Positions 30,427 to 60,723 are shown, numbered from the stretch's first letter. The stretch: DNA of 64,000 nucleotides from Anaeromusa acidaminophila DSM 3853 (GCF_000374545.1 NZ_KB894597.1:1-64000); one strand, 5' to 3'. The notes: generated from the letters alone by a model not told the origin. Translations and numbers: made by a program.

Positions 30427-31707
30427 TCACCCCTCTCTCAGCGCGCGCTTGCTTAAATACACCGACATGGCATCTGGCACAGAACGCTCCGGCATCAAAA
30501 TGTCTAGTACGTCATCGACCGTAATAATGCCGCAGAGAATGCCAGCTTCATCTACAACAGGCACAGCCAGCAAGCCATATTTGTGAATAGTGTCCGCCAC
30601 TTTCCGATGACTGTCTTCATGATGGATCGTAATAATCTTCGTATGCATTAATTCGCCCAGCACCGTATCCGGCTTGGCAATGATCAATTCTCGCAATGAA
30701 AACACGCCCAACAGTTTTTCCGCCGCATCAATTACATATAAATAGTAAATGGTTTCCACTGCCGGCGCTAGCTCCCTGATGCGTTGGATAGCCGCTTCGG
30801 CTGTTAAGTCCACCGATAAGCCGATATATTCCGTCGTCATTAAGCCGCCAGCAGTATCTTCCTCGTACTGCATAAGCTCTTTGACTTCCTCCGCTTCCTC
30901 GGATTCCATCAGAAGCAATAGTTCGCTTGATTTTCCCTCCGGCATTTCACTCAAAATATCAGCCGCTTCGTCTGGCGGCATTTCTTCAAGTAAATCCGAA
31001 GCCTGGTGCCCATCAAGCTGGGTTATAATTTCCACCTGCGTATCCAGTTCCATTTCTGACAAGGCTTCTGCGGCCTGTTCCACATCCAAAGCCTTAATGA
31101 ACACAGCCCGGCTGTTATAATCCATTTCCTCCACAAGATCGGCAATGTCCGCCGGATGCAGCTTGCTCACTTGCTCCTTGTTAAGGTTCAGTTTCAAGCT
31201 GGCGGTTCTTGATTCTAACGGGGTGATGGATTGCCATAAGATATAATGGTTATTTACATTGCTTACTAAAAACTCCAATCCTAACCTGCGAATCAGGCCG
31301 CGCATGCCAATATCGGCGGCCAAAAGAAACAATTGCTGACGCCCGTCTACCTGCGAGCAAGATAAAAGAATATCATTGACCCGCACTAGTTTTGAGCCTT
31401 TCAAATCGATAATCTGTTTATCAAGCAGCCATTTGCCTACATAAAGTTCTTGCTCGTTAATATCTGCAATTTCAATTTCTGCCAACGACTTACACAACTG
31501 AACCTCTTCTGCCGCCCAGTCTTTGACCTGGCTGGCCGGAATCAGCCGATGAATGTCTCCGCTATGGCGAATACCTGTAATATAAGGCATACCGCCATCC
31601 CAGCGTACAACCACGTCTTTAACTTTTCCCGCCGCTTTGCCAGCGCCGTCATAAATTCGCCGCCCCCGCAGTTGACTGAAATAAATTTCTTGCATTGATT
31701 TTTGCAT
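30427..31707 (-). CDS. Soluble magnesium-sensor protein: PRC-barrel, MgtE_N and CBS domains
   Basis: 426 residues, no transmembrane helix. Two PRC-barrel-like segments cover about 8-75 (SQLRGRRIYDGAGKAAG) and 85-160 (VGKWLLDKQIIDL). MgtE N-domain superhelical repeats follow at about 175-285 (LHPADIADLVEEM, MPPDEAADILSEMP). A pair of CBS domains is at about 290-410 (TAGGLMTTEYIGL, HTKIITIHHEDSHRK). In MgtE channels these cytosolic domains sense Mg2+ and gate the pore; here the pore is missing and the next gene, 4 bases on, is the NRMT transporter. It probably acts as a detached sensor or regulator for it. AGAGGGATACT precedes the ATG. Confidence 0.88.
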   Translation of the reverse strand: MQKSMQEIYFSQLRGRRIYDGAGKAAGKVKDVVVRWDGGMPYITGIRHSGDIHRLIPASQVKDWAAEEVQLCKSLAEIEIADINEQELYVGKWLLDKQIIDLKGSKLVRVNDILLSCSQVDGRQQLFLLAADIGMRGLIRRLGLEFLVSNVNNHYILWQSITPLESRTASLKLNLNKEQVSKLHPADIADLVEEMDYNSRAVFIKALDVEQAAEALSEMELDTQVEIITQLDGHQASDLLEEMPPDEAADILSEMPEGKSSELLLLMESEEAEEVKELMQYEEDTAGGLMTTEYIGLSVDLTAEAAIQRIRELAPAVETIYYLYVIDAAEKLLGVFSLRELIIAKPDTVLGELMHTKIITIHHEDSHRKVADTIHKYGLLAVPVVDEAGILCGIITVDDVLDILMPERSVPDAMSVYLSKRALREG

Positions 31708-31867: not shown

Positions 31868-32050
31868 TAACCTATGTCTCCCCCTAATCGTTGAGTTTTA
31901 GCACTGCATAACGTAGAGAAAAATCTCAGCCACCTTAAGTAAAACCTTGTGTCGATAATACCTGTTCTACCCATTGGCGTCTCTCGACGTTTCCGGGCAG
32001 TGGCCTATTTTTATGCAGGAGCCTCACCTAACAGAGATATTCTTTTTTCT
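31868..32050 (-). ncRNA. M-box (ykoK) magnesium riboswitch
   Basis: On the minus strand the conserved M-box segments appear in order: TTAGGTGAGGCTCCT (32017-32031), TGCCCGGAAACGTC (31986-31999), AGAGACGCCAATGGGT (31969-31984), and ACTTAAGGTGGCTGAG (31925-31940). The 3' closing strand lies near 31870-31890. A terminator follows at 31830-31862. In known M-boxes, Mg2+ binding favours the terminator and turns off Mg transporter genes; here the genes are the CBS sensor and NRMT. Confidence 0.93.
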
Positions 32051-45622: not shown

Positions 45623-46387
45623 TTAAAAAATCCCCTGCCAATACCAATGCAGCAGCTGCCGCTCATAAAAATAAGCAATCCAACAGCCTAGCGCCAAAAA
45701 AGGTCCAAAAGGGATGTAATCTTTGCGCCCCTTAAGACCCAAAAGCAACAGCACGCCCCCTATTAGACCGCCTGCAAAAAAAGCCGTCAGCAACATCAAA
45801 AACAATTGCGACACCGTTAACCAGCATCCTGCAGCCATAACAAACTTGACGTCTCCTCCGCCCATGCCGCCACGGCTGGCCAACGCAATCACCACCATAA
45901 CAGCGCCGCCGCTAAGAACGGAAAGACCGTGCGCCAAAAGCGCTTGCAGCCACGATTCATTTCCTAAAACACTGATCGCCAAGCCGCTTACTGCAAAAGC
46001 AACCAAAACTTTGTCAAAAATTAGCTGCCACTCGTAATCTATGAATGAAATCAGCAATAAAAACGCAGCTAAAATCAAGAACGTTCCGCTTTGCAGCCAC
46101 GATTCTCCTTGCCACATCGCAATACCGCCTACTATAGCCATTGCCAATTCCACCGTTATTTGCAGCTTTCCCATTTCTTTATGACAATAGCGGCAACGGC
46201 CATGATTCAACAGATATCCTACCAAAGGAAGTGTATCTAGCCATCCCAGAGCAGCCTGGCATTGCGGGCATAGCCTTCTCCCTCCCCATAACGATTGCTG
46301 ACGGGGAATGCGATAGATACAAATTGCGAGAAAATTACCGATAACCAGTCCCAGAATGATTCCTATCCCTATCGCTCCCATTCCCAT
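45623..46387 (-). CDS. Type IV prepilin peptidase / N-methyltransferase (A24)
   Basis: 254 residues, full-length bifunctional type. An N-terminal zinc domain has CPQCQA and CRYCHKE (about 40-70), then membrane helices with the two aspartates: FIDYEWQLI (about 115) and GGGDVKFVMA (about 173). It removes the leader of Flp pilin and the pseudopilins TadE/TadG and methylates the new N-terminus. ATG with AAGGAGGGCG upstream. A terminator-like repeat (46458-46500) separates it from the DUF192 gene. Confidence 0.93.
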   Translation of the reverse strand: MGMGAIGIGIILGLVIGNFLAICIYRIPRQQSLWGGRRLCPQCQAALGWLDTLPLVGYLLNHGRCRYCHKEMGKLQITVELAMAIVGGIAMWQGESWLQSGTFLILAAFLLLISFIDYEWQLIFDKVLVAFAVSGLAISVLGNESWLQALLAHGLSVLSGGAVMVVIALASRGGMGGGDVKFVMAAGCWLTVSQLFLMLLTAFFAGGLIGGVLLLLGLKGRKDYIPFGPFLALGCWIAYFYERQLLHWYWQGIF

Positions 46388-46457
46388 TCAGCGCCCTCCT
46401 TATATGTTGTTCATATAATTTAATTTCGCCATTTTCCCCAGCATTCCTACTTTGTAA

Positions 46458-46500
46458 ATTAAAAGGCCATTGCCTATATAAACAAGACAACAGCCTTTGC
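46458..46500 (-). terminator. Weak terminator between DUF192 and prepilin peptidase genes
   Basis: AAAGGC...GCCTTTTAATTT stem with an extra TTG/CAA pair and a long loop. Confidence 0.5.
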
Positions 46501-46512
46501 AATATGCTCTAT

Positions 46513-46854
46513 TTAGTTCCAAGCAACCTGTTCGCCAACTTGGCAAGACAAATGCTTCAAACTTCCCGAGGGAAGTTCCACGACCGCATGGGCTTTCCAG
46601 CAAAAGCGCATGCGCCAGGGACGCACATCTGGTTCCACTTTCAAGATGGTGCCATCACACCCTAAAAACAGCAAATCCAGAGCAAACGCCATACCAATGG
46701 TATGAACCGCATTACAGGGCACAATAACCATCCCCTCATTTTTCCCAAACTGTGTTCGCCCCAACAGCCCTCGCAAACGTTTCCACACCGTATCCGCCAC
46801 TTGCAGTTCCTCTACCAACACCTGATTGCTGCGAGAAAGATTGCGCAGTTGCAT
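46513..46854 (-). CDS. DUF192 family protein in the Tad locus
   Basis: 113 residues of the DUF192 fold: GLLGRTQFGKNEGMVIVPC (about 30-48), HTIGMAFALDLLFLG (about 51-65), VEPDVRPWRMRFCWKAHAVV (quoted length 20) and a GSLKHLSCQVGE tail. DUF192 proteins are small, often exported, of unknown function. Here it lies 55 bases after tadC. No signal peptide, so it is probably cytoplasmic. It is regularly met with type IV pilus-like genes, so a role in Tad function is possible. Confidence 0.85.
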   Translation of the reverse strand: MQLRNLSRSNQVLVEELQVADTVWKRLRGLLGRTQFGKNEGMVIVPCNAVHTIGMAFALDLLFLGCDGTILKVEPDVRPWRMRFCWKAHAVVELPSGSLKHLSCQVGEQVAWN

Positions 46855-46908
46855 AACGCCCGCTCCTCTCTATAGCTGCGCTTTCAATTCGATAACAGCA
46901 TGGCCGGT

Positions 46909-47829
46909 TCACTTGAAAAGAGTGGTTTTCATCAGCTGCAATACTGCCGGTCCCAAAATAATAATAAACAAAAAGGGAAAGATGAAAAAAACTAAAGGTA
47001 CCAACATTTTAATCGGCGCTTTCATTGCTTTTTCCTCAGTACGCTGCCGACGCCGCTCCCGCATACTCACCGCCTGCACCCGCAATACATTGCCGATACT
47101 GACCCCCAGATGATCCGCTTGAATAATTGCTGCCGTAAACAAGGACAAATCCGGCACATCACAACGGCGCCCCATGTCTCCAATGGCCTTTCGCCGCGCC
47201 ACGCCCATGCGCATCTCCTTTAATACCCGGCCAAACTCATCCACCAAAGGGCCTTTCATCTTCTCCGTCAGCTTCGCCAATGCTCCGTCAAAGCCAAGCC
47301 CCGCTTCCACGCTCACCGTCAGTAAATCCAAAGTCCCCGGCAAGTCTTTTTGAATCCGATTCTTACGCGCCTGCACTTGATTATTCAGCCAGACAAAAGG
47401 CAACAAGGCCCCAAATATCAGGCAGAGCAGACCTGCTTTCCAGACAATATCCATCGGCAAATGGACCAACTGCATGCCGCTCACAACGCCCATCGGGAGC
47501 AGAATAACCACCAAAGCCCAAATAAAAAGAAATTCATTCGTTCCCAAGGTGATGCCGGCCATTACCAAGCGCGTTTCTACCGCCTTCTGCAACGACTTGG
47601 GAGTCAACCCTGCCAGGCCCTCCCCTATCGATGCCAACAAAGGAAGCAGTACACGCTGATAAAATGGTTTATCCATATCATCCAAAGGTTTATCCTTTGC
47701 AAAACTTCTCTTTTCTAAGGCATGCAGCCGTTTTCCAGCCGTATTGGGAGCCTCTTCTTTCTTGGATAGCAGCGCATAAATGAGCAAAAACAGGCTTACG
47801 GCCATGCCCAAACTGATGAGCAACTCCAT
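46909..47829 (-). CDS. tadC: TadC, Tad pilus platform protein
   Basis: 306 residues, T2SSF-domain inner-membrane protein with helices near 3-19, 100-150 and 270-300. The cytoplasmic core has LDLLTVSVEAGLGFDGAL (about 163-180) and DVPDLSLFTAAIIQADHLG, the TadC pattern. With TadB it forms the platform that couples the CpaF ATPase to Flp assembly. It follows cpaF with no gap (stop to start within one base). Confidence 0.9.
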   Translation of the reverse strand: MELLISLGMAVSLFLLIYALLSKKEEAPNTAGKRLHALEKRSFAKDKPLDDMDKPFYQRVLLPLLASIGEGLAGLTPKSLQKAVETRLVMAGITLGTNEFLFIWALVVILLPMGVVSGMQLVHLPMDIVWKAGLLCLIFGALLPFVWLNNQVQARKNRIQKDLPGTLDLLTVSVEAGLGFDGALAKLTEKMKGPLVDEFGRVLKEMRMGVARRKAIGDMGRRCDVPDLSLFTAAIIQADHLGVSIGNVLRVQAVSMRERRRQRTEEKAMKAPIKMLVPLVFFIFPFLFIIILGPAVLQLMKTTLFK

Positions 47830-49227
47830 TTACCATCCCCCCTCTTCTTCCGATGCCCAGAAAAGCTCCGTCGGCAAAACAATGCCGTTCGTCACCAGCT
47901 TCTCGTAGAATTTGGGGCGAATGCCCATGGGCTTAAAATGCCCCACAATCCGCCCATGATCATCCTTGCCTTTTTGATCAAACACAAAGAGGTCTTGCAG
48001 GGTAATAATGCTCCCTTCCATGCCCCGCACTTCCGTCAAGTGGGTGATCCGCCGACTGCCATCCTGCAAGCGGGCCTGATGCACAATTAAATCCACCGCT
48101 GATGCAATCTGCTCCCGAATGGCCTGCACCGGTAACTCCATGCCCGCCATCAGCACCATGGTCTCCAAACGAGCCAGCATATCCCTGGGGCTATTAGCAT
48201 GGCCGGTGGTCAGCGAGCCGTCATGTCCGGTATTCATTGCTTGCAGCATATCCAGCGCTTCTCCGCCGCGAACCTCACCGACTACAATACGATCCGGCCT
48301 CATACGCAAAGCGTTCTTCACCAAATCGCGCATAGTAATAGCTCCCTTGCCCTCAATGTTGGCTGGGCGCGACTCCAATGTTACCACATGCTCCTGACGC
48401 AACTGCAGCTCTGCCGCGTCTTCAATAGTTACAATCCGTTCGTCCCCGGGAATAAAAGAAGAAAGCACGTTTAGCGTCGTCGTCTTGCCGGATCCAGTCC
48501 CTCCGGAAACGACAATATTGAGTTTACCTTGCACGCAGGCTCTAAGAAATTCCGCCATATCCTTAGTCAACGTGCCATAGTCGATTAAGCGGCTGACCGT
48601 CAACGGGTTTTTAGAGAATTTGCGGATCGTCAGGCACGGTCCTTTCAAGGCTAACGGCGGAATAATAGCGTTAACCCGCGAACCATCCGGCAAACGCGCA
48701 TCCACCATGGGCGAGCTCTCATCAACGCGCCTCCCTAAGGGAGAAACAATTTTTTCGATAATCTGCATTACATGGGCGTCATCGCGAAAACGAACATCTG
48801 CTTTAAACAGCTTGCCTTTACGTTCAATATAAATCTGATTAGCTCTGTTCACCATAACCTCTGAAATGGTTTCGTCTTTTAACAATGGATCAATCGGTCC
48901 AAAGCCCAAAACAGCATCCATCATTTCATCAATAATCTTATTCCGATCATTCCTTGGTATCGGCACATTCTGCTCTTCCATCACCTGATTGCAGATTTGA
49001 CCGACAAACTCTTCCAACTGCTTACGGTCTGGATTTTTGCTAGTAAGAATCTTGCCTTCTTCCTGGTTCATAGCCTCTACAATGCGTTGATGAATATGAC
49101 TTTTCAGTTCCTGATATGGATCTGTCGGCACAAAAGCTTCCTCTAGTACCTCCGGTACGCCTAACGCCGGCTGTGCAGCTTTCTTCTGCGCCTCAATCCT
49201 GCGCCTCAGTAATGACGACATTTCCAA
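47830..49227 (-). CDS. cpaF: CpaF/TadA, Tad pilus secretion ATPase
   Basis: 465-residue hexameric ATPase. The N-terminal 90 residues are charged, then an N1-like domain (DEMMDAVLGFGPIDPLLKD). Walker A SGGTGSGKTT lies near 233, the Asp box VTIEDAAELQL near 263, Walker B RPDRIVVGEVRGGEA near 300, the His box LTTGHANSP near 330. Powers Flp pilus assembly. It is followed directly by tadC and preceded by the TadG-like gene. Confidence 0.96.
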   Translation of the reverse strand: MEMSSLLRRRIEAQKKAAQPALGVPEVLEEAFVPTDPYQELKSHIHQRIVEAMNQEEGKILTSKNPDRKQLEEFVGQICNQVMEEQNVPIPRNDRNKIIDEMMDAVLGFGPIDPLLKDETISEVMVNRANQIYIERKGKLFKADVRFRDDAHVMQIIEKIVSPLGRRVDESSPMVDARLPDGSRVNAIIPPLALKGPCLTIRKFSKNPLTVSRLIDYGTLTKDMAEFLRACVQGKLNIVVSGGTGSGKTTTLNVLSSFIPGDERIVTIEDAAELQLRQEHVVTLESRPANIEGKGAITMRDLVKNALRMRPDRIVVGEVRGGEALDMLQAMNTGHDGSLTTGHANSPRDMLARLETMVLMAGMELPVQAIREQIASAVDLIVHQARLQDGSRRITHLTEVRGMEGSIITLQDLFVFDQKGKDDHGRIVGHFKPMGIRPKFYEKLVTNGIVLPTELFWASEEEGGW

Positions 49228-49242
49228 TCCCCCTCTCTGTAC

Positions 49243-50166
49243 TCAGCGAATCAGTTTGGTCGTATATACCCCCCAATCCGGGTTAGTACCCCCCTCGCCA
49301 GGCGTAACAATCTTTAAGAAGCGACCGATAACATAGTTTTCATTTCCCTGCTTGCCTGTTGCTTCTAAAAAGAACGCCGCAAAGCCGGAAACCCGCACAT
49401 CAGTGCGGCCAACGACCTCAAAACTCTCCAATATGGGTACAATGATAATCCTTGGTGATCCTTCCTGCACCGTCGTATACGACACCCCCGAATCTGCATT
49501 CACGCGATAAGAAACTCCAGAGACAGTAGGACCCGCCATATTTCCGGTCTCGGTCTGAACCCAGTCGCCAATATGAATTACGCCATCATAACCCTGTTTA
49601 ATATTGTCCAAATATTTGGAGGCACCCGTCCCGCCCAAAGCCAAAGCCTGGAAGTTACCGTAATAGCTACCGCCGCTGCCGTACTTCAAGGTAACCTGTG
49701 TACCAAAGGCAAGATCTCCTGTGTTCACAGCTACGCCAAAGGGAACGACCCCTGCCACCCCTGTCGCCGGTTGCAAGCCAGCGGTTGCCGTAGCTTGGAC
49801 CGGCCACTGCGGTACTCCAAAAATGTGAGCAAAATATAAATCTACCATTCGTTGAACCGTCACGGTAATTTGATTGGCTACTGTCAGGTCCACCGTCACA
49901 TTATCAGTGGCCCTACCATTCAATGCCGCATAGGCTCTGGCCTCGCTTTCAGCAGCCTCAGGGCTGTGCCGCAACTCTTGCGCTCCTGCTAACGCGGCCG
50001 CATCCGCTGCAGTCTGCACTTGCGCTTTATTCCAATAAAGAAAGCCTGCATCAAGAGCCAGCGCAGAAATTCCCAACAACATAAAAAGCGCCGCTGCCAC
50101 CAGCACCAATGTTGTGCCGCGCGGCTCCTTCAGCAACTGTACTATCTTCCTGCCATACCACATCAT
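49243..50166 (-). CDS. TadG-like pilus-associated protein
   Basis: 307 residues. The N-terminus KEPRGTTLVLVAAALFMLLG is a class III-like pseudopilin or TadG membrane segment, followed by SALALDAGFLYWNKAQVQTA and a DAAALAGAQELR block (about 55), typical of the TadE/TadG/Flp-associated group. The rest is Gly/Thr-rich beta sheet with no von Willebrand MIDAS motif visible. Exported pilus component, exact role in assembly unknown. 16 bases upstream of cpaF. Confidence 0.82.
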   Translation of the reverse strand: MMWYGRKIVQLLKEPRGTTLVLVAAALFMLLGISALALDAGFLYWNKAQVQTAADAAALAGAQELRHSPEAAESEARAYAALNGRATDNVTVDLTVANQITVTVQRMVDLYFAHIFGVPQWPVQATATAGLQPATGVAGVVPFGVAVNTGDLAFGTQVTLKYGSGGSYYGNFQALALGGTGASKYLDNIKQGYDGVIHIGDWVQTETGNMAGPTVSGVSYRVNADSGVSYTTVQEGSPRIIIVPILESFEVVGRTDVRVSGFAAFFLEATGKQGNENYVIGRFLKIVTPGEGGTNPDWGVYTTKLIR

Positions 50167-50175
50167 TGCTCCCTC

Positions 50176-50568
50176 CTATTCTACCCGCATAGTTGCTGTT
50201 CCTTGCACCTCTGTTGGCGGGTTAAACGCTTGAATAATCCCGCTGATTACATGAGTCGGAATGGTAACAGTCACAGTCACTGCAGAGCCCTGCGCCCGAG
50301 GAGCAGCAGGCGTGATCACTATGGTCATTCCCTCAGGATCAGCCCCAGCAGCTGCATTGACAACCACAGCCCGCACCTGCGCATCATCATTGCTTACCGC
50401 CGCTGCCCTTGCGCCTTCTCTGGCGGCATGAGTCACCAACTGATGCTGATGCAACATAAGGCCAAATTCAGTCGTCCCCAAAAAAACAACAAGCACAAGT
50501 AGCAACGTTAACGCGGTTTCCACTAAGGCTTGTCCCTGTTGTTTGCAATACTTCCCATGTTTTTTCAT
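50176..50568 (-). CDS. TadE-like pseudopilin
   Basis: 130 residues from the ATG at 50566-50568 (GGGAGGG upstream). After KQQGQALVETALTLLLVLVV (about 10-29) the Glu at +5 of the processed pseudopilin is in QALVE. The LVTHAAREGARAAAVSN block (about 50-66) is diagnostic of TadE. Processed by the prepilin peptidase and thought to take part in pilus initiation. 9 bases before the TadG-like gene. Confidence 0.88.
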   Translation of the reverse strand: MKKHGKYCKQQGQALVETALTLLLVLVVFLGTTEFGLMLHQHQLVTHAAREGARAAAVSNDDAQVRAVVVNAAAGADPEGMTIVITPAAPRAQGSAVTVTVTIPTHVISGIIQAFNPPTEVQGTATMRVE

Positions 50569-50676
50569 AGAAAGCCCTCCCCTAGGTTCGCCTGTTTTAC
50601 AGCCCATAACAATCGCGTCTTTATTTTTTCGACTTTTCTGATTATATTATATCATATTACAACAGTATCACCTATT

Positions 50677-50714
50677 AAAAAACCTCTCTGACCATCTGCC
50701 AGAGAGGTTTTTAT
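50677..50714 (-). terminator. Terminator after the flp pilin gene
   Basis: AAAAACCTCTCTG / CAGAGAGGTTTTTT stem-loop with T-run on the minus strand, 75 bases after the flp stop and before tadE. Confidence 0.9.
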
Positions 50715-50787
50715 ATCACCAACTCAATAACAACTACCGTCTTTGTCTTGGAACTTTCATATAAATAAACATTCACCGACCCCGACC

Positions 50788-50967
50788 TCAACCTCCAGCT
50801 GCTGGAATTAGAGCGTTTCTAACTGCTGTGAACACTCCTTGAATCGTAAGCCCGAGCTGTCCCATGATCACAATAGCCACAATAGAGATCAGAACCAGAA
50901 TCAAAGCGTATTCCACCATCGTTTGCCCTTTGTGTCCCCGCAATAATTCCATCAATTTCCGCAGCAT
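50788..50967 (-). CDS. flp: Flp pilin, main Tad pilus subunit
   Basis: 59 residues from the ATG at 50965-50967 with AAAGGAGGGG upstream. The short basic leader MLRKLMELLRGHKG is followed by the Flp motif QTMVEYALILVLISIVAIVI: Gly at -1, Glu at +5 and Tyr at +6, then one hydrophobic helix. Cleavage by the prepilin peptidase after Gly14 is expected. The short C-terminal tail ends IPAAGG. It has its own promoter and terminator, so the abundant pilin can be made in excess of the machine. It lies between tadB and tadE. Confidence 0.92.
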   Translation of the reverse strand: MLRKLMELLRGHKGQTMVEYALILVLISIVAIVIMGQLGLTIQGVFTAVRNALIPAAGG

Positions 50968-51112
50968 GATCGTCCCCTCCTTTATTCAAAACAGGAAACC
51001 CGCCACTTTTTTCCTCTACCGTTCGCCTTCAAGCCTCCCTCCAAACCAATAGTAATTTTTTCATTGTTTACAACTTTTATCTTTGCGTTCACTATTATCA
51101 TCTTCTAATATC

Positions 51113-51140
51113 ATTATACTACTTTTCACAATTTTGTCAA
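51113..51140 (-). promoter_or_regulatory. flp promoter
   Basis: TTGACA (51135-51140 complement), 16-base spacer, TATAAT (51113-51118 complement). The leader down to the flp start is about 140 bases long and contains an AATAGT/ACTATT stem candidate. Confidence 0.8.
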
Positions 51141-51249
51141 TAAGTGTCGTTTGACGATAAATAAATCCTGCTTACTGTAATTTTTCAGACATTTACGTGT
51201 GTTTGCAGTATCCATTTTGTCTATATTTGTAACTACTTTCATTTTCATA

Positions 51250-52224
51250 TCATACTTCAATATCAATAATCTTACGAATCATTAAAACGCCTGCCCCCTG
51301 CAGAACCAGTCCCACGGCCAGCATTTTTTGTCCATAAGGATCCGTAAACAAACCGGAAATATATCCGGGATTCATCAAAAAGATGAATCCACCTAAGGCA
51401 AAGGGCAGTAAGCCCACGATCAGTCCTGACAGCCTCCCTTGAGCCGTGAGCGTCTGGATGTGACCACGCAGCCGTACCCGCTCGCGAATAGTACCAGCAA
51501 TCTTATCCAGAATTTCCGCCAAATTACCTCCAATCTGTCGTTGTATCAGCATGGCAGTTACAACCAAGTCCAAATCCTCGCTAGCGACGCGCTGAGTTAA
51601 ACCAGTCATAGCCGTTTCCGTCGCAACGCCCAGACTCATTTCCCGGATGACTCTGGCAAACTCTTCGCTGATCGGCGGGGCCATCTCCTTGGCCACCATG
51701 TCCATGGCCTGCATAAAGCTATAACCGGTACGTAGCGAGTTGGCAATGAGAATCAACGCATCTCCAAGCTGCGCATCAAAAGCTTTGGCCCGTTGGCGAA
51801 CTTTTCGCTGCAGCACAAAATGCGGCAAAAAATAGCCGATCACACCAAAAACAACGAGCCCTGAATGCTGCCCCAGCAGCACTAACCCCAACAGAATTCC
51901 CCCTCCGGCGATAACGAGACAAAGAAGGATGAACTCACCAGGTCGTAGCAATACTCCCCCTTGGAGCAACCGTCGTTCCAGTCCCTTATTGGCTAAGCGC
52001 GTCGACTCCAACACCCCAGACAGCCAACGAAAAGAGTGACGAATCCCTTTCTCTTGATTCTCCCCTTCCGGCTCCTTGTTACGTTCGCTAGCCCGCTTCG
52101 ATACATAGGTGTCTAAGCGTTCGCTAATTTCTTTGCGTTCCTGCAGCAAGAATCGCCGCAACACCCATAATACCAACAAAGTCGTCAAAAAGATCAGTAA
52201 TGCAATAATAAACGCCATGTTCAC
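51250..52224 (-). CDS. tadB: TadB, Tad pilus platform protein
   Basis: 324 residues with an N-terminal helix (AFIIALLIFLTTLLVLWVLR) and the T2SSF domain at about 170-300: GDALILIANSLRTGYSFMQA (about 158-177), EDLDLVVTAMLIQRQIGGNL (about 212) and two C-terminal helices. Partner of TadC. It is separated from tadC by flp, tadE, tadG and cpaF, an order different from the usual adjacent cpaF-tadB-tadC. Confidence 0.9.
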   Translation of the reverse strand: MNMAFIIALLIFLTTLLVLWVLRRFLLQERKEISERLDTYVSKRASERNKEPEGENQEKGIRHSFRWLSGVLESTRLANKGLERRLLQGGVLLRPGEFILLCLVIAGGGILLGLVLLGQHSGLVVFGVIGYFLPHFVLQRKVRQRAKAFDAQLGDALILIANSLRTGYSFMQAMDMVAKEMAPPISEEFARVIREMSLGVATETAMTGLTQRVASEDLDLVVTAMLIQRQIGGNLAEILDKIAGTIRERVRLRGHIQTLTAQGRLSGLIVGLLPFALGGFIFLMNPGYISGLFTDPYGQKMLAVGLVLQGAGVLMIRKIIDIEV

Positions 52225-52244
52225 ACCTCCTTTACAGAGGCCCG

Positions 52245-53462
52245 CTATTTCTTAAACGCCCGTTTTAAGCGCGCCATAAAACCGCCTTCCACCTTCTTCG
52301 CCGGGGCTTTCACTTCTCCATACGCCAAAATTTGGGCTAATTGGAAGAATGCTTGGGCAATAGGCGTATCCGGATTCCCCACCACAAGCGGAATCCCTCG
52401 ATTCACAGACCCCAAGACGTTTACGCCGTCACTGGGCAATACCATGTCGAAGCTTCGCTTCAACGTATCTTCGACTTCCACTCTCGTCATGCCGCCTTCG
52501 GAATTAGCTCGGTTTAGCAAGAGCAAGAGTTTCTCTCTTGGATAGCCTAGAGAATCCATAATTTCCAAACACATTTTGATGTTCTTTATCGTCGGCAAAT
52601 CTAATGAGGACACCACGATAATCATATCGGACACATCCAAAATGTTCAGCATAAAATCCGCAAAGCTTGGCGGCGAATCCACCACCACCAAATCAAACAT
52701 CCCCTTTAGTTTAGTCAGAATCTCCGCCATCTGCGCTCCTGAAATGCTTTCCGCTTCTTCCGGCCGATGCGGCGCCGCCAAGACGCTCAGTCGGGAACTA
52801 TAGGGAGTCAGATAGCTGCGGATTACACCTTCGTCCATTTGGTCTAAATCCTTAATCAAATCTGCAATGGTCGCTTGGGGCATCAAGTTTAAAAACAACG
52901 CCGCATCGCCAAATTGCAAATAACCATCTACCAATACCGTAGAGCACCCGGTATGCTCCGCCAGAGCAACGGAAAGATTCGTAGCAATCAGCGTCTTGCC
53001 AATACCGCCCTTGGTACTGAAGACCGTAATAATCCGTCCTTCCCGTCTTCCTTTCGACGGCATCTGCAGCAATCTCCGACGCCGTCGTTCCAGATCCGCC
53101 ACCTGCTTAATCGCCGAAATGACTTCCTCACTGCTGAATGGTTTGATGAGATAGTTTTTGGCTCCGGCGATCATCGCGCGTCGCAAATGCTCCTGATCCC
53201 CTTGCACGCTCATAATAATGATACTGACATTAGGAGCTTGATCCTGCATAACCTCCGCCGCTTCAATGCCATTCATTCCCGGCATATTCACGTCCATGAG
53301 GACGATATCCGGCTGTAATGCCGCAGCCTGCGCCAATCCTTCTTGGGCCGTATTCGCTTTGCCCACTAACGCAATTTCTTCATGGTAACTTAACAGCTCT
53401 GTAATGTTACGCAGTGTGTCTTCGTTATCATCAACTAGCAGCACCCTTATCTTTTCTGTCAT
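52245..53462 (-). CDS. tadZ: CpaE/TadZ: receiver domain fused to a MinD-like ATPase
   Basis: 405 residues from the ATG at 53460-53462. An intact response-regulator receiver domain covers about 4-120: VLLVDDNEDTL, phospho-Asp in VLMDVNMPGMNG (about 54), and Lys in YLIKPFSS. A MinD/ParA-type ATPase follows (about 145-385) with deviant Walker A STKGGIGKTLIATNLS and FDLVVVDSPPSF. It positions the Tad machine at the pole. In many TadZ proteins the receiver is degenerate; here the phospho-Asp is present, so regulation by a kinase is possible. A G10 tract serves as its ribosome site. Confidence 0.92.
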   Translation of the reverse strand: MTEKIRVLLVDDNEDTLRNITELLSYHEEIALVGKANTAQEGLAQAAALQPDIVLMDVNMPGMNGIEAAEVMQDQAPNVSIIIMSVQGDQEHLRRAMIAGAKNYLIKPFSSEEVISAIKQVADLERRRRRLLQMPSKGRREGRIITVFSTKGGIGKTLIATNLSVALAEHTGCSTVLVDGYLQFGDAALFLNLMPQATIADLIKDLDQMDEGVIRSYLTPYSSRLSVLAAPHRPEEAESISGAQMAEILTKLKGMFDLVVVDSPPSFADFMLNILDVSDMIIVVSSLDLPTIKNIKMCLEIMDSLGYPREKLLLLLNRANSEGGMTRVEVEDTLKRSFDMVLPSDGVNVLGSVNRGIPLVVGNPDTPIAQAFFQLAQILAYGEVKAPAKKVEGGFMARLKRAFKK

Positions 53463-53464
53463 TT

Positions 53465-54691
53465 TTATCCCCCCCCCCATGGATCTTCCTTCAACAACTC
53501 TTTCATTTCCTGTGTCGTCGACGGTTGATACTCTTCAGGGTTCACCAGGGTCGGAGTAACCAAAATTACCAATTCCGTTTCACCGCTATTAAAAGAGGTA
53601 CTCCGGAAGAGGCTGCCAATAATGGGCAGATCGCCCAAGAAAGGAAGTTTGGTAATATCTTTAGTAACTTCTCGGTTAATTAAACCGCCTAATGCCATCG
53701 TCTGCCCCGAAGAAAGAGCCAGCACAGTTTCCGCTTTATTCATTTTGAGCGGTGGAATATCCAAGTTTGTTCCAATCTTAATACGATGGGTGCTGTTCCA
53801 TTCCATGGAACTTACTTCTGACTTGATACGACTTTGGATCAGGCCATCGGAATTAACCTGGGGCTCAATATCCAATTTAATACCATACTCTTTCCACTCG
53901 ACAGAAATCTGCCCATTTTGGTTACTCACGGGAATGGGTATTTGCCCGCCTACCATAATATTCGCTTTATCACCACTTAAGGTAATTACATTTGGTCGCG
54001 AAAGAATCTTAGCGTCCCCTTTTTGTACTAATGCCAAAACCTGAGCATTGATGTTTTGATAAGTTCCAAAATTACCAAACACTCTACTAGAAGCATAGCT
54101 GTTGGTCTGACTTTGCCCTGCTTGGAAGCTGCCTGGATTTACAATGCCGCCATTGAGATTGCCCCAGGTAACTCCCAAATTATTGACCTTACTGCGGTCA
54201 ATTTCCAGGATCATCGTTTCCAGCTTCACCTGGATTGGATGAACAATTTCTAATAAATTGACCACTTTCTCAGCATATGCCCCTGCTACTTTTTCCGCCC
54301 GCTGCTTTTGGTATTGGCTGTTAACTTTTCCTTCCAACACAATAGTTTTATTAATTTTGTTGACTCGAATGCCGTCCGCTCCTACTAACGCCTGCACCTC
54401 TACTGCTGCCCCTGGATCGTTAGAGGAAACCTCTACATCATAAGTACTAAGACCATTATCTGCCCATACCTGCAAAGTCGTTTTCCCTGTGCTTTTGCCT
54501 ACCAGCAAAAATTCATAACTCGATACTACCATCACGTCCGCAATTTCCGGATTGGCAATCGCTACGCGCGTAAGGCCGGACATCTCTATCACTTTCGATT
54601 GGTTAATCCCTACTGACAAGGAGGCCGCCGACGCTGAAGACGCAAAAGCCAGAACCATAATGACTGCTATGATATAAATCCATCGTTTCAT
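53465..54691 (-). CDS. cpaC: CpaC/RcpA, Tad outer-membrane secretin
   Basis: 408 residues. Signal peptide (IYIIAVIMVLAFASSASA), then N-terminal BON-like/N0 domain (about 25-150) and the secretin core (about 210-385): NVITLSGDKANIMVGGQIPI, cut here to 20, DIPPLKMNKAETVLALSSGQ (20) and the PFLGDLPIIGSLFRS C-terminal strand. The product forms the outer-membrane pore for the Flp pilus, which implies a diderm cell. The last codons (TGG GGG GGG GGA TAA) lie in a G10 homopolymer. Confidence 0.93.
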   Translation of the reverse strand: MKRWIYIIAVIMVLAFASSASAASLSVGINQSKVIEMSGLTRVAIANPEIADVMVVSSYEFLLVGKSTGKTTLQVWADNGLSTYDVEVSSNDPGAAVEVQALVGADGIRVNKINKTIVLEGKVNSQYQKQRAEKVAGAYAEKVVNLLEIVHPIQVKLETMILEIDRSKVNNLGVTWGNLNGGIVNPGSFQAGQSQTNSYASSRVFGNFGTYQNINAQVLALVQKGDAKILSRPNVITLSGDKANIMVGGQIPIPVSNQNGQISVEWKEYGIKLDIEPQVNSDGLIQSRIKSEVSSMEWNSTHRIKIGTNLDIPPLKMNKAETVLALSSGQTMALGGLINREVTKDITKLPFLGDLPIIGSLFRSTSFNSGETELVILVTPTLVNPEEYQPSTTQEMKELLKEDPWGGG

Positions 54692-54707
54692 CTGCTTCCC
54701 TCCATCC

Positions 54708-55607
54708 TCAATTTACAGCTACCGACTCCGTTTTGGTGCCGCGGATTACCATTACGCCACCCGCACCGCCGCTGCTACTTCCTCCTGGCACGCCCATTGC
54801 CGGAGGCAACACCGGCGGAGCTGCTGTCGGAAAAATGGAAGGCGCATTCGGAGAACTTTCTTTAGCTGTCGGGGCCGCATGAGACCCTACTAAATCTCTA
54901 GGCGTCATTACTTGCGCTACTACTTGCTCCGGCATGGCCAGATAGGGTCGAAGCACCAACGATACTTTTCCTTTATCTTGCGCCAAAAAAAGCTTAGGCG
55001 CATCTTCGGGGTCCACTGCCACAGTCACTGTCGCCGTTTTGCTTGCTTCCTTCGTTACCGTTTTATCTCCCGAATCTAGGCCGGTTTCCCGATTCACCGC
55101 TAGAACCAACAGCTTCTGTAGCAGCATCCTGCTGGCATTCTCACCAACACTGCCTGAATCAAAACTTACAAGAGCATCCACATAGTCACCGACTTTAATC
55201 AAACCGCCGACACTGTTGGCTTCCGTAACCGCCAGCGCCATCGCCCGCTTGTTCTGAGGGATAATACCAGTAAAACCTACTCCCTTCATGTCCAGAAGCA
55301 GCCGACGTTCTGTTATCTGCTCCCCAGCGCCAATGCTGTCCTTGGCCACCACTCCCACCAAGGAAGATAAGGAAGTGATAGCACCTGGCTGCGCGTATTT
55401 CCCAGGGACTTTTTCTTCTTTCAACATTTCCGCCGTCAGGCGCATTTTGGGTATAATATCGCTTTTCGCTACCACTACCGTTTGCAGTTCTCCTTCGTTT
55501 TTTAGAGCGCTAGCTCCTTTTAAGTACTGATAGGCCAAGGTTGCCGTCACTAAACTAATTGCCAACGCCACAAGCAGTAATTTCCGATTGGTCATGGTTA
55601 CTTTCAC
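54708..55607 (-). CDS. cpaB: CpaB/RcpC pilus assembly protein
   Basis: 299 residues, GTG start with GGGGGG upstream. An N-terminal anchor helix (LLLVALAISLVTATLAY) is followed by a SAF domain (about 40-105: VVVAKSDIIPKMRLTAEML) and the RcpC domain (about 105-240: MALAVTEANSVGGLIKVGDYV, cut to 20). The tail is Pro/Gly/Ser-rich and disordered. First gene of the cpaB-cpaC-tadZ-tadB run; periplasmic partner of the secretin. Confidence 0.9.
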   Translation of the reverse strand: MKVTMTNRKLLLVALAISLVTATLAYQYLKGASALKNEGELQTVVVAKSDIIPKMRLTAEMLKEEKVPGKYAQPGAITSLSSLVGVVAKDSIGAGEQITERRLLLDMKGVGFTGIIPQNKRAMALAVTEANSVGGLIKVGDYVDALVSFDSGSVGENASRMLLQKLLVLAVNRETGLDSGDKTVTKEASKTATVTVAVDPEDAPKLFLAQDKGKVSLVLRPYLAMPEQVVAQVMTPRDLVGSHAAPTAKESSPNAPSIFPTAAPPVLPPAMGVPGGSSSGGAGGVMVIRGTKTESVAVN

Positions 55608-55733
55608 GAATCATCCCCCCCATCTCGCATTCCAAAACGTTTTATTAATACCTATTCACTAGCGCAATTATAATTCCTGCTATATTTACTGATTATATTA
55701 AATTTTCAGTTTTTAATTAAGAATAGTTTGCTC

Positions 55734-56168
55734 CTATTGTCCAATTACACTCAACGGATCGATCCATTGGCTTCCCTGCCAAATGCTTAAATGCAAATGC
55801 GGCCCCGTTGAATACCCGCTGTTCCCTACATACCCTACTAATGTTCCCGCTCCTATATACGCTCCCTCATTCACCGCAAGCCGGCTTAAATGGGCATAAA
55901 GCGTATACACTTCATTAGCATGAGCTACGACTATACAATTACCATAACCACTCCATTGATTCGCATAAATAACCTGCCCATCCCATAAGGTTCCAATCGG
56001 CGTACCATAATCCAAAGCTAAATCCACGCCATTATGAAACTGCCATGTACCACTAATCGGGTGTATGCGCATACCGAACGGAGATGTCACCGTATATGCA
56101 GCACAAATTCCTGTTTGCCAAACGGTTAAACATCCTACTAAAACGAGAATTCCGAGCAACCTCTTCAT
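55734..56168 (-). CDS. Secreted M23 (LytM-type) metallopeptidase
   Basis: 144 residues: signal peptide (LLGILVLVGCLTVWQTGICA) and a single peptidase M23 domain. Zinc ligands: FHNGVDLALD (HxxxD, about 44-53) and GPHLHLSIW (HxH, about 122-130). Almost no linker, so it is a minimal LytM enzyme. It would cut peptidoglycan cross-bridges. It lies 110 bases upstream of cpaB on the same strand; local wall opening for the Tad machine is plausible but not shown. Confidence 0.88.
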   Translation of the reverse strand: MKRLLGILVLVGCLTVWQTGICAAYTVTSPFGMRIHPISGTWQFHNGVDLALDYGTPIGTLWDGQVIYANQWSGYGNCIVVAHANEVYTLYAHLSRLAVNEGAYIGAGTLVGYVGNSGYSTGPHLHLSIWQGSQWIDPLSVIGQ

Positions 56169-56949: not shown

Positions 56950-56993
56950 GATGAAGAAAAAACCGTTCCCGGCGGAACGGTTTTTTCTTCATG
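56950..56993. terminator. Bidirectional terminator
   Basis: ATGAAGAAAAAACCGTTCC / GGAACGGTTTTTTCTTCAT, 19-bp perfect arms, 4-base loop, T-runs on both strands, between convergent genes. Confidence 0.93.
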
Positions 56994-57017: not shown

Positions 57018-60000
57018 TTAACAATCACAGTCGTTGTTTGCTAGCAATGCCAAAAACGAATCAACCAGTTTCGGTTCAAATTGCGAACCGCTGCAACGAA
57101 GCAATTCTTCAATAGCGTCCTTCTTTGTCATTGCTTTTCGATAAGGCCGATCACTAGTCATAGCGTCATAAGCATCCACAATACTCAATATCCGACACTG
57201 CAAAGGAATTTCTTCGCCCGCTAGACCCAATGGGTATCCTGAACCATCCCAGTTTTCATGATGTTTTAAAATCCAATCTGAAATCGGCTCCAAATCAATG
57301 GAAGCTTTTGCAATACGAAAACCAATTTCGCAGTGTTGTCGCATAATCTTCATTTCATCCGGCGTCAGCCTTCCCGGTTTCTTCAAAATGCTGTCGGGAA
57401 TCCCCACCTTGCCCATATCATGAAATTTGGCAAACAAACGCAAATCGGCAACCGCACTGCTAGGCAAGCCAAGACAGCGCCCCATTTCCTCCAGCATAAC
57501 ACTCAAACGGTCCGCATGGCCTTCTGTAATATGATCGCGTTCTTCTAACGCCTTCATTAATGTCTGAACGATCGAATGTCGCACACTATGACTTTGGTGT
57601 ATTTTTTGACGGTACATATAGGAATCTGCCAACTTTAAGGCCTGTTCCGCTTCAGAGGAATACTCCGCAATTTTCCACCCCATCGACAAGCTCACCGGCA
57701 ATTGCAAGTACGTCTCATTATAGTCTTGCAAGCGTTTTTGATAGGTTTTCTCTAATTCTTCCATGCTAGTTGGCGAAGTATCAAAGCAAACTACTACAAA
57801 CTCATCTCCGCCAACTCTGGCAACATAATCTGGAAATGACAATTCTTCTTCTAACAACGCGGCTACTCGTTTTAACAACAAATCGCCTTGCGCATGCCCT
57901 AACGTGTCATTGATCAATTTAAGGCCATCCACATCGCAAACTAAAATACCAATATTTCGTTTCTCTTCTGTTTTCATTTTTCCGAGGTCCGCTTCAAAAA
58001 ATGATCGATTATACACACCGGTCATACTATCGCGCTGCATCAGATACTGTGCGTGCTCTTCCGCTTCACGTCTCGCAGTGATATCGCGAAGGGCAGCCAA
58101 GCAACACGTCTTATTTTCAAATTCCACGGTCGTTGCACTAACTTCTAAAATTAGCCGTTTACCGTTTCGAGCCTGAAACTCTTTTTCATAAATTGGATAC
58201 GCCCCCTCTGCAACAACGGTTCGAATCACTTGCAAGGTTTTCTCTTGCTGTACCCCTTGTACCAGTACCTCTAAACCGTTCTCTTGCAGCTCTTGTTGTG
58301 AACATTGAAAAAGTTCTTCAACCCTTCGATTTGCTCTCAGTATGGCGCCGTTTTCACCATCAAAGACGATCAAACCATCCCCTGCCGCTTCAAAAATATC
58401 CACCGCTTGTTTTTGGCTGATTGCTAAGGCTTTCATGGTTTGCGCATTATCAACGGCAATGGCTGCCAGCTCCGCAAACGGAATCAGCGTATTCATTTCT
58501 TTTTCCCCAAAAACACGATTCTCCTCCGTAAAGGCAATACCAATAACGCCGAGGATACGGTCTTCCTTCTTCATGGGCACCATGGCAAAGCAACAAACTT
58601 CCGCCAACGAAGGATGCGTATTCCTTTTCGGCCACTCTTTATAATTGTTCACAATACAAGCTTCTTTTGTGCGAAGTACTTCGCCAATAATTCCAGATGT
58701 TAAGGAAAGCTTGATTCCAAAATGCTCCTTTTGAGCAAACAACCCGACTCCGCCTAGTCCTACGATAAGCTGTTTCGTTTCGTCCAGCAGCCCTACGGTT
58801 CCATGTACAGAGCCAGTACTCCTTGTGGCCCAGGAAATAATAATCGCTAGCAAGCTATCCACATCTTTTTGAGCCAACAATTGGGAAGATACTTCACTTA
58901 ACGCTTTCAACAACGCATTATGCGAAAGCAGATCATGATTCACCTGCGCCGTTTTTTGATATTGCTCGCGCAGTTCTTCCTCCGTTGCAAGCAACTCTTC
59001 ATGGGTGGCGCTTAACTGCTCGTAATGTTCCTGCAGTTTTTGTTTTGCTTGGACCCGCTCCGTAATATCAAAGGCGGCGCCTACAACAGCCCATACTGAG
59101 CCACTTTCATTTTTCAAAGGGATTAGCTGGTGGCTCCACCAGCGAGCTTGAAACAAGAATTCTCCTATAACCGTTTCCCCTAGCAGCGCACGTTGCACTT
59201 GATTCACAAGCTCTGGATGATTTTTATAAACCGCAAAAGCCGATGCGCCCACTTCACGACGAGTTCCCTGGGAGCCGTCGTTTTGCAAGCCTTCCCCCTC
59301 AGAAAGAGTAAAGCTCCCGTAGCTATCTAATGCATAAAACACGATGGGCGTATGTGCGATAAATGTACGGAGCCATAGCTCTTCTTTATGTTGTTTACGA
59401 AGACTAGATAACATATAGCTAGCTGCCAAAACAATGCCCAGGCTAAGCATAGACGCCGCCAGCAAAGATATGGTTCTATGTTGGTAGTATAAGTTCAATA
59501 CGTCTTGCGAAGTCCCTACTTGAATAACAAGGGGATAGTCTTGCATCTTTCTATAGCTTTCGACCAACGTCTCCTTCGTTTGTGTTGCCAGAAAATCTCC
59601 ATAGCTTTTAGTTATAATATCTTCTTGTTCTTCCAATTGTTGAAAAACGGGATCCTGACTTAGGTTATTACCAATTTCACTTTCACGGCCACTAGCCCGC
59701 ACAACACCATCTAATCCGATAAAGCGAATCGTATAGTTCCGAGAAAAATTCATTTCCTGATAAAAAGAAGAAAAATACTCTGGTTTCATTGCAATAATGG
59801 CCACGCCAGCAAATTGTCCATCTGGATAGGCCAAGCGCTTCGTTAAATGAATACTAAGCCGTTGAGATGTTTTTCCTTTGTACGGCTTTCCAATATATAG
59901 TTCATCACGACCACTTTCGGTATGGTACAAAAAATGAGGAACATCCGCGATATTAATTCCTTGGCCTTCACCAATCGTATTTAAGACAAAATCCCCTTTA

Positions 60001-60332
60001 TTATCTACTATACCGGCTGCTAATATAGGATCCAAACGAATTTGCCGAAAAAGTCTTTCCAGCCCTGGAGTCCTGGTATAGGTTTGCTCATATTCGTCTC
60101 TCATATGATTTAAGTAAAATTCATTTGTATTCAGCACACGACGAACATGCTCTTCAAAAGCCATCCCCATACGCTCGCAATCATGCTTGGCTTCTTCCAT
60201 CACGGTTCGATGTTCAAAATAAAGCAAGCTCAACGTACTCGTCCACACAATGATAAGCAAACACGCAGAGCCAAATAAAAGAAAGCGTTTTAGAAATTGC
60301 CAATTTCGCAAAAATCCTTTTTTGTGCTGCAA
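57018..60332 (-). CDS. Membrane-bound Cache-PAS-GAF-PAS-GGDEF-HD-GYP c-di-GMP signalling protein
   Basis: 1104 residues, TTG start with AGGAGG upstream. Helix 1 (about 15-35), a periplasmic Cache-type sensor (about 40-285), helix 2 (about 287-307), a PAS (about 315-425), coiled coil (430-480), GAF (about 485-640), second PAS (about 645-765), GGDEF domain (about 780-930; VARVGGDEFVVV intact, so cyclase activity is possible) and HD-GYP phosphodiesterase (about 935-1095; HDMGKVGIP and HHENWDGSGYPLG intact). It can in principle both make and destroy c-di-GMP. Transcription passes a c-di-GMP-I riboswitch and terminator first. Located next to the Tad pilus genes. Confidence 0.93.
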   Translation of the reverse strand: MQHKKGFLRNWQFLKRFLLFGSACLLIIVWTSTLSLLYFEHRTVMEEAKHDCERMGMAFEEHVRRVLNTNEFYLNHMRDEYEQTYTRTPGLERLFRQIRLDPILAAGIVDNKGDFVLNTIGEGQGINIADVPHFLYHTESGRDELYIGKPYKGKTSQRLSIHLTKRLAYPDGQFAGVAIIAMKPEYFSSFYQEMNFSRNYTIRFIGLDGVVRASGRESEIGNNLSQDPVFQQLEEQEDIITKSYGDFLATQTKETLVESYRKMQDYPLVIQVGTSQDVLNLYYQHRTISLLAASMLSLGIVLAASYMLSSLRKQHKEELWLRTFIAHTPIVFYALDSYGSFTLSEGEGLQNDGSQGTRREVGASAFAVYKNHPELVNQVQRALLGETVIGEFLFQARWWSHQLIPLKNESGSVWAVVGAAFDITERVQAKQKLQEHYEQLSATHEELLATEEELREQYQKTAQVNHDLLSHNALLKALSEVSSQLLAQKDVDSLLAIIISWATRSTGSVHGTVGLLDETKQLIVGLGGVGLFAQKEHFGIKLSLTSGIIGEVLRTKEACIVNNYKEWPKRNTHPSLAEVCCFAMVPMKKEDRILGVIGIAFTEENRVFGEKEMNTLIPFAELAAIAVDNAQTMKALAISQKQAVDIFEAAGDGLIVFDGENGAILRANRRVEELFQCSQQELQENGLEVLVQGVQQEKTLQVIRTVVAEGAYPIYEKEFQARNGKRLILEVSATTVEFENKTCCLAALRDITARREAEEHAQYLMQRDSMTGVYNRSFFEADLGKMKTEEKRNIGILVCDVDGLKLINDTLGHAQGDLLLKRVAALLEEELSFPDYVARVGGDEFVVVCFDTSPTSMEELEKTYQKRLQDYNETYLQLPVSLSMGWKIAEYSSEAEQALKLADSYMYRQKIHQSHSVRHSIVQTLMKALEERDHITEGHADRLSVMLEEMGRCLGLPSSAVADLRLFAKFHDMGKVGIPDSILKKPGRLTPDEMKIMRQHCEIGFRIAKASIDLEPISDWILKHHENWDGSGYPLGLAGEEIPLQCRILSIVDAYDAMTSDRPYRKAMTKKDAIEELLRCSGSQFEPKLVDSFLALLANNDCDC

Positions 60333-60453
60333 GTATAAACCTCCTAGACTTCCTATTTATTAACCCTAGCTTGATTTTTCACAGGTCTCATGACATGGCC
60401 TCGACGCCTGTTACGCGATTATTTTACCGGCTTATTGGTTCAACTTTTTCTAT

Positions 60454-60488
60454 AAAAAAATACCGGCCAAAATTGGGCCGGTATTTTT
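60454..60488 (-). terminator. Terminator of the c-di-GMP riboswitch
   Basis: AAAAATACCGGCC / GGCCGGTATTTTTTT stem-loop on the minus strand, 12 bases after the riboswitch and about 120 bases before the TTG start of the signalling gene. Confidence 0.92.
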
Positions 60489-60499
60489 ATGGCTATATG

Positions 60500-60590
60500 C
60501 CCCGGCAACTTGGCAATCATAGACAATCGTCCTTAGACCCATAGCTTTGCGTCCTTACCTTTCGGCAAGTTTGCTTTTTACAATTTTATT
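60500..60590 (-). ncRNA. c-di-GMP-I (GEMM) riboswitch
   Basis: On the minus strand: GCAAAC followed by hairpin CTTGCC-GAAA-GGTAAG with a GNRA loop, then GGACGCAAAGCTATGGGTCT, the GEMM core, TAAGG, a second hairpin (ACGATTGTCTATGATTGCC) and AAGTTGCC. The GCAAAC / GGACGCAAAGC / GGGTCTAA order is diagnostic of the family. A terminator follows; the controlled gene is the GGDEF-HD-GYP protein at 57018-60332. Whether binding switches on or off needs structure probing; the proximity of aptamer and terminator suggests transcription control. Confidence 0.9.
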
Positions 60591-60614: not shown

Positions 60615-60640
60615 ATTATATTGTAAATTTAGTCTAACTT
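60615..60640 (-). promoter_or_regulatory. Promoter region of the riboswitch transcript with a repeated AAGTTAGACT element
   Basis: TATAAT lies at 60615-60620 (complement), giving a start near 60608. An AAGTTAGACT element (60631-60640 complement) lies at the -35 position and recurs upstream at 60682-60691 and 60764-60773. A second reading uses TTGACT and TAGACT with a 17-base spacer. Confidence 0.55.
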
Positions 60641-60723
60641 CCTAGGCAACTATAGTCAATTACATTTTATTACAATTTCTAAGTCTAACTTATCTTTAAA
60701 CATGGCCCTTCGTCTTAATGCCG

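Follow-up and report, generated by a model that had tools for sequence, protein, structure and literature searches.

Among riboswitches of the GEMM-I family, Cd1 is an OFF switch and pilM an ON switch, and the layouts of the two are opposite (PMC9262584). All seven functional class I RNAs of Clostridioides difficile are OFF switches, and 5 of 16 c-di-GMP riboswitches of that organism were reported to be non-functional (PMC6366702). In Vc2 it is base G20 that recognizes one guanine of the ligand. The GEMM-Ib RNAs of Geobacter have A20 as the base choosing cGAMP; in Gmet_0970 this base sets cGAMP over c-di-GMP, and an A20G change turns the choice to c-di-GMP (PMC6456294), while Vc2 with the reverse change, G20A, was seen binding cGAMP in a crystal structure (PMC6274999). 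Mutations in lower P2 also alter selectivity (PMC9262584), and P2 of the Geobacter cGAMP RNA begins with a C15-G40 pair (PMC6274999). Riboswitches for cGAMP have been proposed outside Geobacter as well (PMC8835794).

The locus described here belongs to Anaeromusa acidaminophila DSM 3853 and lies within a stretch of 64,000 nucleotides that was analysed as a whole (the window); its features are collected in Table 1. A cmscan search of the entire window gave a single match to RF01051, covering the full model (1-87) at 81.8 bits (gathering 35; E 1.5e-14), which places the aptamer in the family by sequence and structure above the curated score. An earlier note on this DNA had called an aptamer and a terminator, and the family match, together with a hairpin and U tract directly downstream, bears out both. 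It had also read the only downstream gene as having both catalytic motifs intact, as we find: the gene, which starts with TTG, is the sole gene of its transcript, the next one being convergent, and RVGGDEF, HDMGK and HHENWDGSGYP are intact in the protein and kept in its orthologs. The gene under this RNA encodes a protein that could synthesize the signal as well as degrade it. We consider it somewhat better than an even chance that this is an OFF riboswitch, likely for c-di-GMP, that controls a predicted net phosphodiesterase in a double-negative loop. Elsewhere in the window an M-box magnesium riboswitch (161 bits; 31876-32042, minus strand) lies upstream of a gene at 30427-31707 on the same strand.

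Table 1. Features of the riboswitch locus; positions are counted from the first nucleotide of the window.
Feature	Position	Strand	Basis
Complete Tad (Flp) pilus locus, neighbour only	45623-56168	-	Adjacency kept in congeners G001 and G002
Inverted-repeat terminator separating the gene from the convergent one	~56955-56985	.	Sequence
Gene for membrane protein, 1104 aa: Cache-like sensor, PAS, GAF, PAS, GGDEF, HD-GYP	57018-60332	-	Pfam; same-length orthologs 90% and 86% identical
HD-GYP domain: HD and HHExxDGxGYP motifs intact	57066-57563	-	
GGDEF domain with intact RVGGDEF and intact selectivity Asp (GHAQGD); degenerate I-site (SFPD)	57597-58034	-	
Shine-Dalgarno AGGAGG	60340-60345	-	Sequence; start region same in orthologs
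Intrinsic terminator, hairpin and U tract	60453-60488	-	Sequence and folding; conserved with a compensatory pair change
CCGGC, terminator 5' arm, alternative partner of 60502-60506 (predicted antiterminator)	60477-60481	-	Pairing probability ~0.99 before the 3' arm is made
GEMM-I (c-di-GMP-I, RF01051) aptamer	60501-60585	-	cmscan, 81.8 bits
Aptamer 3' strand GCCGG, containing C92 (60505); pairs in P1 or in the predicted antiterminator	60502-60506	-	Folding of truncated transcripts, three species
A at the equivalent of Vc2 G20 (ligand-recognition base)	60575	-	Position 11 of the Rfam alignment, where the strongly conserved consensus is G and the window has A; A in both orthologs
Putative sigma-70 promoter TTGACT-17-TAGACT	60631-60659	-	Consensus scan; hexamers and spacing same in both orthologs

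Two of three congeners (G001 and G002) have the same riboswitch, followed by a 1104-residue ortholog, a small gene on the opposite strand and then the Tad genes. The aptamer shares 81 of its 85 bases with each of the two orthologs (~95%), and in the comparison between species it stands out as conserved together with the promoter region and the terminator, whereas the leader past the terminator is not conserved. P1 shows a U-G to C-G change, and the terminator, which is conserved in both congeners, a compensatory one from U-A to C-G (AUACCGG/CCGGUAU versus ACACCGG/CCGGUGU). For the putative promoter conservation is the chief evidence, as the consensus scan finds sites in numbers no higher than in shuffled sequences. 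The third congener (G003) has no ortholog of the gene (best match 38%), no RcpC match and five GEMM-I RNAs, none of them the counterpart of the window RNA; the joint absence of riboswitch, gene and RcpC fits the gain or loss of a block and is therefore no proof of a functional link. In distant relatives of the protein (L119-L128) there is no GEMM RNA near the gene. The riboswitch-enzyme pair is real and well conserved; the type of riboswitch is already known, and the interest lies in its pocket variant.

Folding points to a transcriptional OFF switch resembling Cd1. The terminator consists of a 9-bp GC-rich hairpin with four A-U pairs and a U run. When growing transcripts of the three species were folded, the aptamer 3' strand (60506-60502) was predicted, at the same transcript length in each, to pair with CCGGC at a probability of ~0.99 while the terminator 3' arm was unmade, aided by an inner GGC/GCC stem. 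This reproduces, as a thermodynamic prediction in all three species, the arrangement of Cd1, where the strand with C92 is taken up by the terminator 5' arm in the absence of ligand and the terminator is independent of the aptamer. Forcing the aptamer into the ligand-bound core fold costs ~6 kcal/mol or more relative to the antiterminator fold. Against the model, P1 has only about three pairs, and the antiterminator pairing is partly cheap because CCGG is palindromic; among 300 permuted terminator 5' arms, 23-37 (8-12%) reached a pairing probability of at least 0.9. An ON switch, in which the ligand prevents termination as in pilM and, judged by layout, in many RNAs of the host's class, seems unlikely here: many relatives in the class do use the 3' strand of the aptamer itself for the terminator, and part of this strand in the window is also complementary to the terminator 3' arm, but none of the aptamer's bases enters the terminator (60488-60453), which is therefore not excluded by a bound aptamer, and its competitor in the ligand-free RNA is the antiterminator. 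As soon as 5-6 bases of the 3' arm have been added, the terminator prevails at equilibrium whether ligand is present or not, and the OFF model consequently needs kinetic trapping. That dominance in both states would also suit an RNA that may still bind but controls nothing, its termination being constitutive and partial, and non-functional c-di-GMP riboswitches do exist (PMC6366702); such a loss of control is nevertheless very unlikely, given that aptamer (95% identity), antiterminator strands and terminator have been kept in three species and the leader beyond the terminator has not.

The earlier note named c-di-GMP as the ligand, which most of the evidence favours, but it missed the A at pocket position 20, the hallmark position of cGAMP-sensing GEMM-Ib RNAs, so that the ligand is not established. 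With the Vc2 numbering checked through the 20-47-92 spacing given for Bc1 (PMC11218506), the equivalents of A47 and C92 are kept and G20 is replaced by A, in the window aptamer and likewise in its two orthologs. The window RNA therefore has the adenine that marks GEMM-Ib, but its lower P2 pair is G21-C46, the c-di-GMP type, and not the C-G pair of the Geobacter structure, which may not define all members. The host has no recognizable cGAMP synthase, though an unrecognized one could exist: the selectivity residue in all 51 GGDEF domains of the genome is Asp (49) or Asn (2) and in none the Ser of Hypr enzymes, and a search of the genome for SMODS/CD-NTase proteins (DncV-type) gave no match. Neither the genus nor most A20-rich genomes of the class contain a Hypr-like DNA motif; hits across the class were mostly chance-like, some having a Cys-like codon and coming from genomes that lack A20 RNAs. 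Four genomes lacking A20 riboswitches (G264, G275, G278 and G300) have DNA matches to ND..GH..G with a Cys-like codon next, where the GGDEF selectivity residue would be, representing either unusual GGDEF domains or chance.

Eight GEMM-I RNAs occur in the genome, three with A20 and five with G20, and within the genus the two bases are swapped at two orthologous riboswitch loci (L005 versus L088, L098 and L105; L107 versus L002, L089 and L099), an interchange that speaks against a ligand change having become fixed. The idea of a GEMM-Ib-like RNA that senses 3',3'-cGAMP, or that responds to both dinucleotides, was prompted by A20, which occupies the specificity position in all three orthologs and has the precedents of cGAMP selection in Geobacter (PMC6456294), of cGAMP binding by Vc2 G20A (PMC6274999) and of the sensors proposed beyond that genus (PMC8835794); after the GGDEF survey, the SMODS search, the class-wide Hypr motif and the P2 pair were taken into account, we lowered it to distinctly unlikely. 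Our best guess from the sequence is that c-di-GMP is the ligand, perhaps at lowered affinity, because the lower P2 pair is G-C, no GGDEF domain among the 51 has the Hypr Ser, the search for a DncV-type enzyme gave nothing, and A alternates with G at orthologous sites. An A20 pocket in a host lacking a recognizable cGAMP synthase is also a natural system for a clean test of whether this base is enough to determine the ligand.

The protein has a GGDEF (1.1e-30) and an HD_5 domain (7.1e-36) by Pfam, with GAF_2 and PAS_4 matches and a sub-threshold dCache_1. Its GGDEF domain retains Asp in GHAQGD, where a Hypr enzyme has Ser. The inhibitory I-site, RxxD five residues before GGDEF, is absent in all three orthologs (SFPD or AFPD), which the earlier note had missed; it is kept in 19 of the 46 readable GGDEF domains of the genome. 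Between orthologs the HD-GYP domain is 93-98% identical and the GGDEF domain 86-88%. We lean toward a net phosphodiesterase, as net hydrolysis would be expected from the better conserved HD-GYP domain and a GGDEF domain without an I-site, and by analogy with the tandem GGDEF-EAL proteins of C. difficile, which are mostly phosphodiesterases (PMC6200980). With both catalytic motifs intact, net cyclase activity is also possible.

These elements suggest how the OFF switch might work. Without ligand, the aptamer 3' strand, including C92, would pair with the terminator 5' arm (GCCGG/CCGGC plus the inner GGC/GCC stem) and allow read-through; with ligand bound, the strand would be held in the pocket and P1, leaving the terminator free to form and to stop transcription before the GGDEF-HD-GYP gene. 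The ligand, most likely c-di-GMP, would probably be bound less tightly than by G20 RNAs on account of A20, and the switch would then respond at higher signal levels. High c-di-GMP would thus mean that less enzyme is made, and a net phosphodiesterase behind an OFF switch would give a double-negative, self-reinforcing loop whose balance may be set by the Cache, PAS and GAF sensors. Least certain in this model is the sign of the loop. The feedback loop put forward in the earlier note remains the best reading of the arrangement, namely an aptamer, a terminator and one gene with dual motifs; its naming of c-di-GMP as the ligand is qualified by A20. The cell probably adjusts this enzyme according to the signal that the enzyme handles, and a loop at the RNA level might compensate for the I-site that the cyclase lacks, with homeostasis versus bistability at stake.

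The complete Tad locus that the same note had placed next door is confirmed by its gene content, comprising Flp, TadE/G, the CpaF ATPase, TadB/C, RcpC, the secretin, an RR-ParA CpaE-like protein and a prepilin peptidase. Its proposed role as a c-di-GMP output has the neighbourhood in its favour but no direct link to the riboswitch: the Tad operon starts beyond a divergent gene, and cmscan found no GEMM-I RNA of its own within the window. Some indirect support comes from two other genera of the class, in which A20 GEMM-I RNAs lie directly upstream of the Tad gene RcpC/CpaB (L244 in G007 and L247 in G163).

Six of the seven other GEMM-I RNAs of the genome lie before three chemoreceptors, an EAL-HDOD gene, a GGDEF-HD-GYP gene and a 60-residue DUF3391-like gene, so that c-di-GMP enzymes are at least three of the eight targets, a kind of target called rare in a review (PMC6366702). 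The second RNA before a GGDEF-HD-GYP gene (L113; G000:C6:156388-156479) has G20, and the protein, of 694 residues, has a 7TM sensor. The genome accordingly has the pairing of riboswitch and GGDEF-HD-GYP gene more than once. A20 is common in the host's class, with ~67 A20 and ~299 G20 cores (~366 in all) over 380 genomes in a hand tally that includes a few chance matches. In other genera, the GGDEF proteins encoded right after A20 RNAs carry the canonical Asp, a further point in favour of c-di-GMP. In a sample of these genera GGDEF genes followed 7 of ~40 A20 RNAs and 2 of 37 G20 RNAs; the enrichment is a trend only (Fisher p = 0.15). Five of eight RR-GGDEF orthologs with GEMM-I RNAs have A20, at a nominal p = 0.007 from related sequences and a test chosen post hoc. 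In several families of the class, GEMM-I RNAs precede orthologous RR-GGDEF (response-regulator) genes, at L309-L311, L314, L315 and L319 (G163, G164, G007, G311, G317 and G037), with G20 in L316, L318 and L322. The aptamer 3' strand of these RNAs forms the terminator, a layout that resembles an ON switch and would mean positive feedback on a cyclase. It is possible, though doubtful, that the A20 GEMM-I RNAs of the class, the window RNA among them, are a functional subclass, either c-di-GMP sensors of lowered affinity that serve preferentially at Tad operons and in feedback on c-di-GMP enzymes, or RNAs that sense a second dinucleotide made by an unrecognized synthase.

Compared with known systems, the protein has, like other GGDEF-HD-GYP sensor proteins, Cache, PAS and GAF sensors ahead of GGDEF and HD-GYP domains whose motifs are intact, and differs in being under a riboswitch and in its absent I-site. 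The RR-GGDEF genes of other Negativicutes (L309-L319) share with it a GEMM-I RNA, there often with A20 and upstream of a c-di-GMP synthase gene, but their expression platform looks to be of the ON type and their product is a response regulator. The GEMM-Ib cGAMP riboswitches of Geobacter (pgcA and pilM) are alike in the A at the G20 equivalent and in keeping the C92 equivalent; their lower P2 pair is C-G where that of the window RNA is G-C, pilM is an ON switch, and Geobacter has a Hypr GGDEF enzyme (GacA), none being recognizable in this host. Cd1 (Cdi-1-3) of C. difficile flgB is also a GEMM-I RNA, an OFF switch with the ligand-contacting C strand in the antiterminator and a separate terminator (PMC9262584, PMC6366702). 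Cd1 controls flagellar genes, whereas the RNA described here has A20 and a very short P1, is predicted to be an OFF switch, and precedes the gene of a c-di-GMP enzyme.
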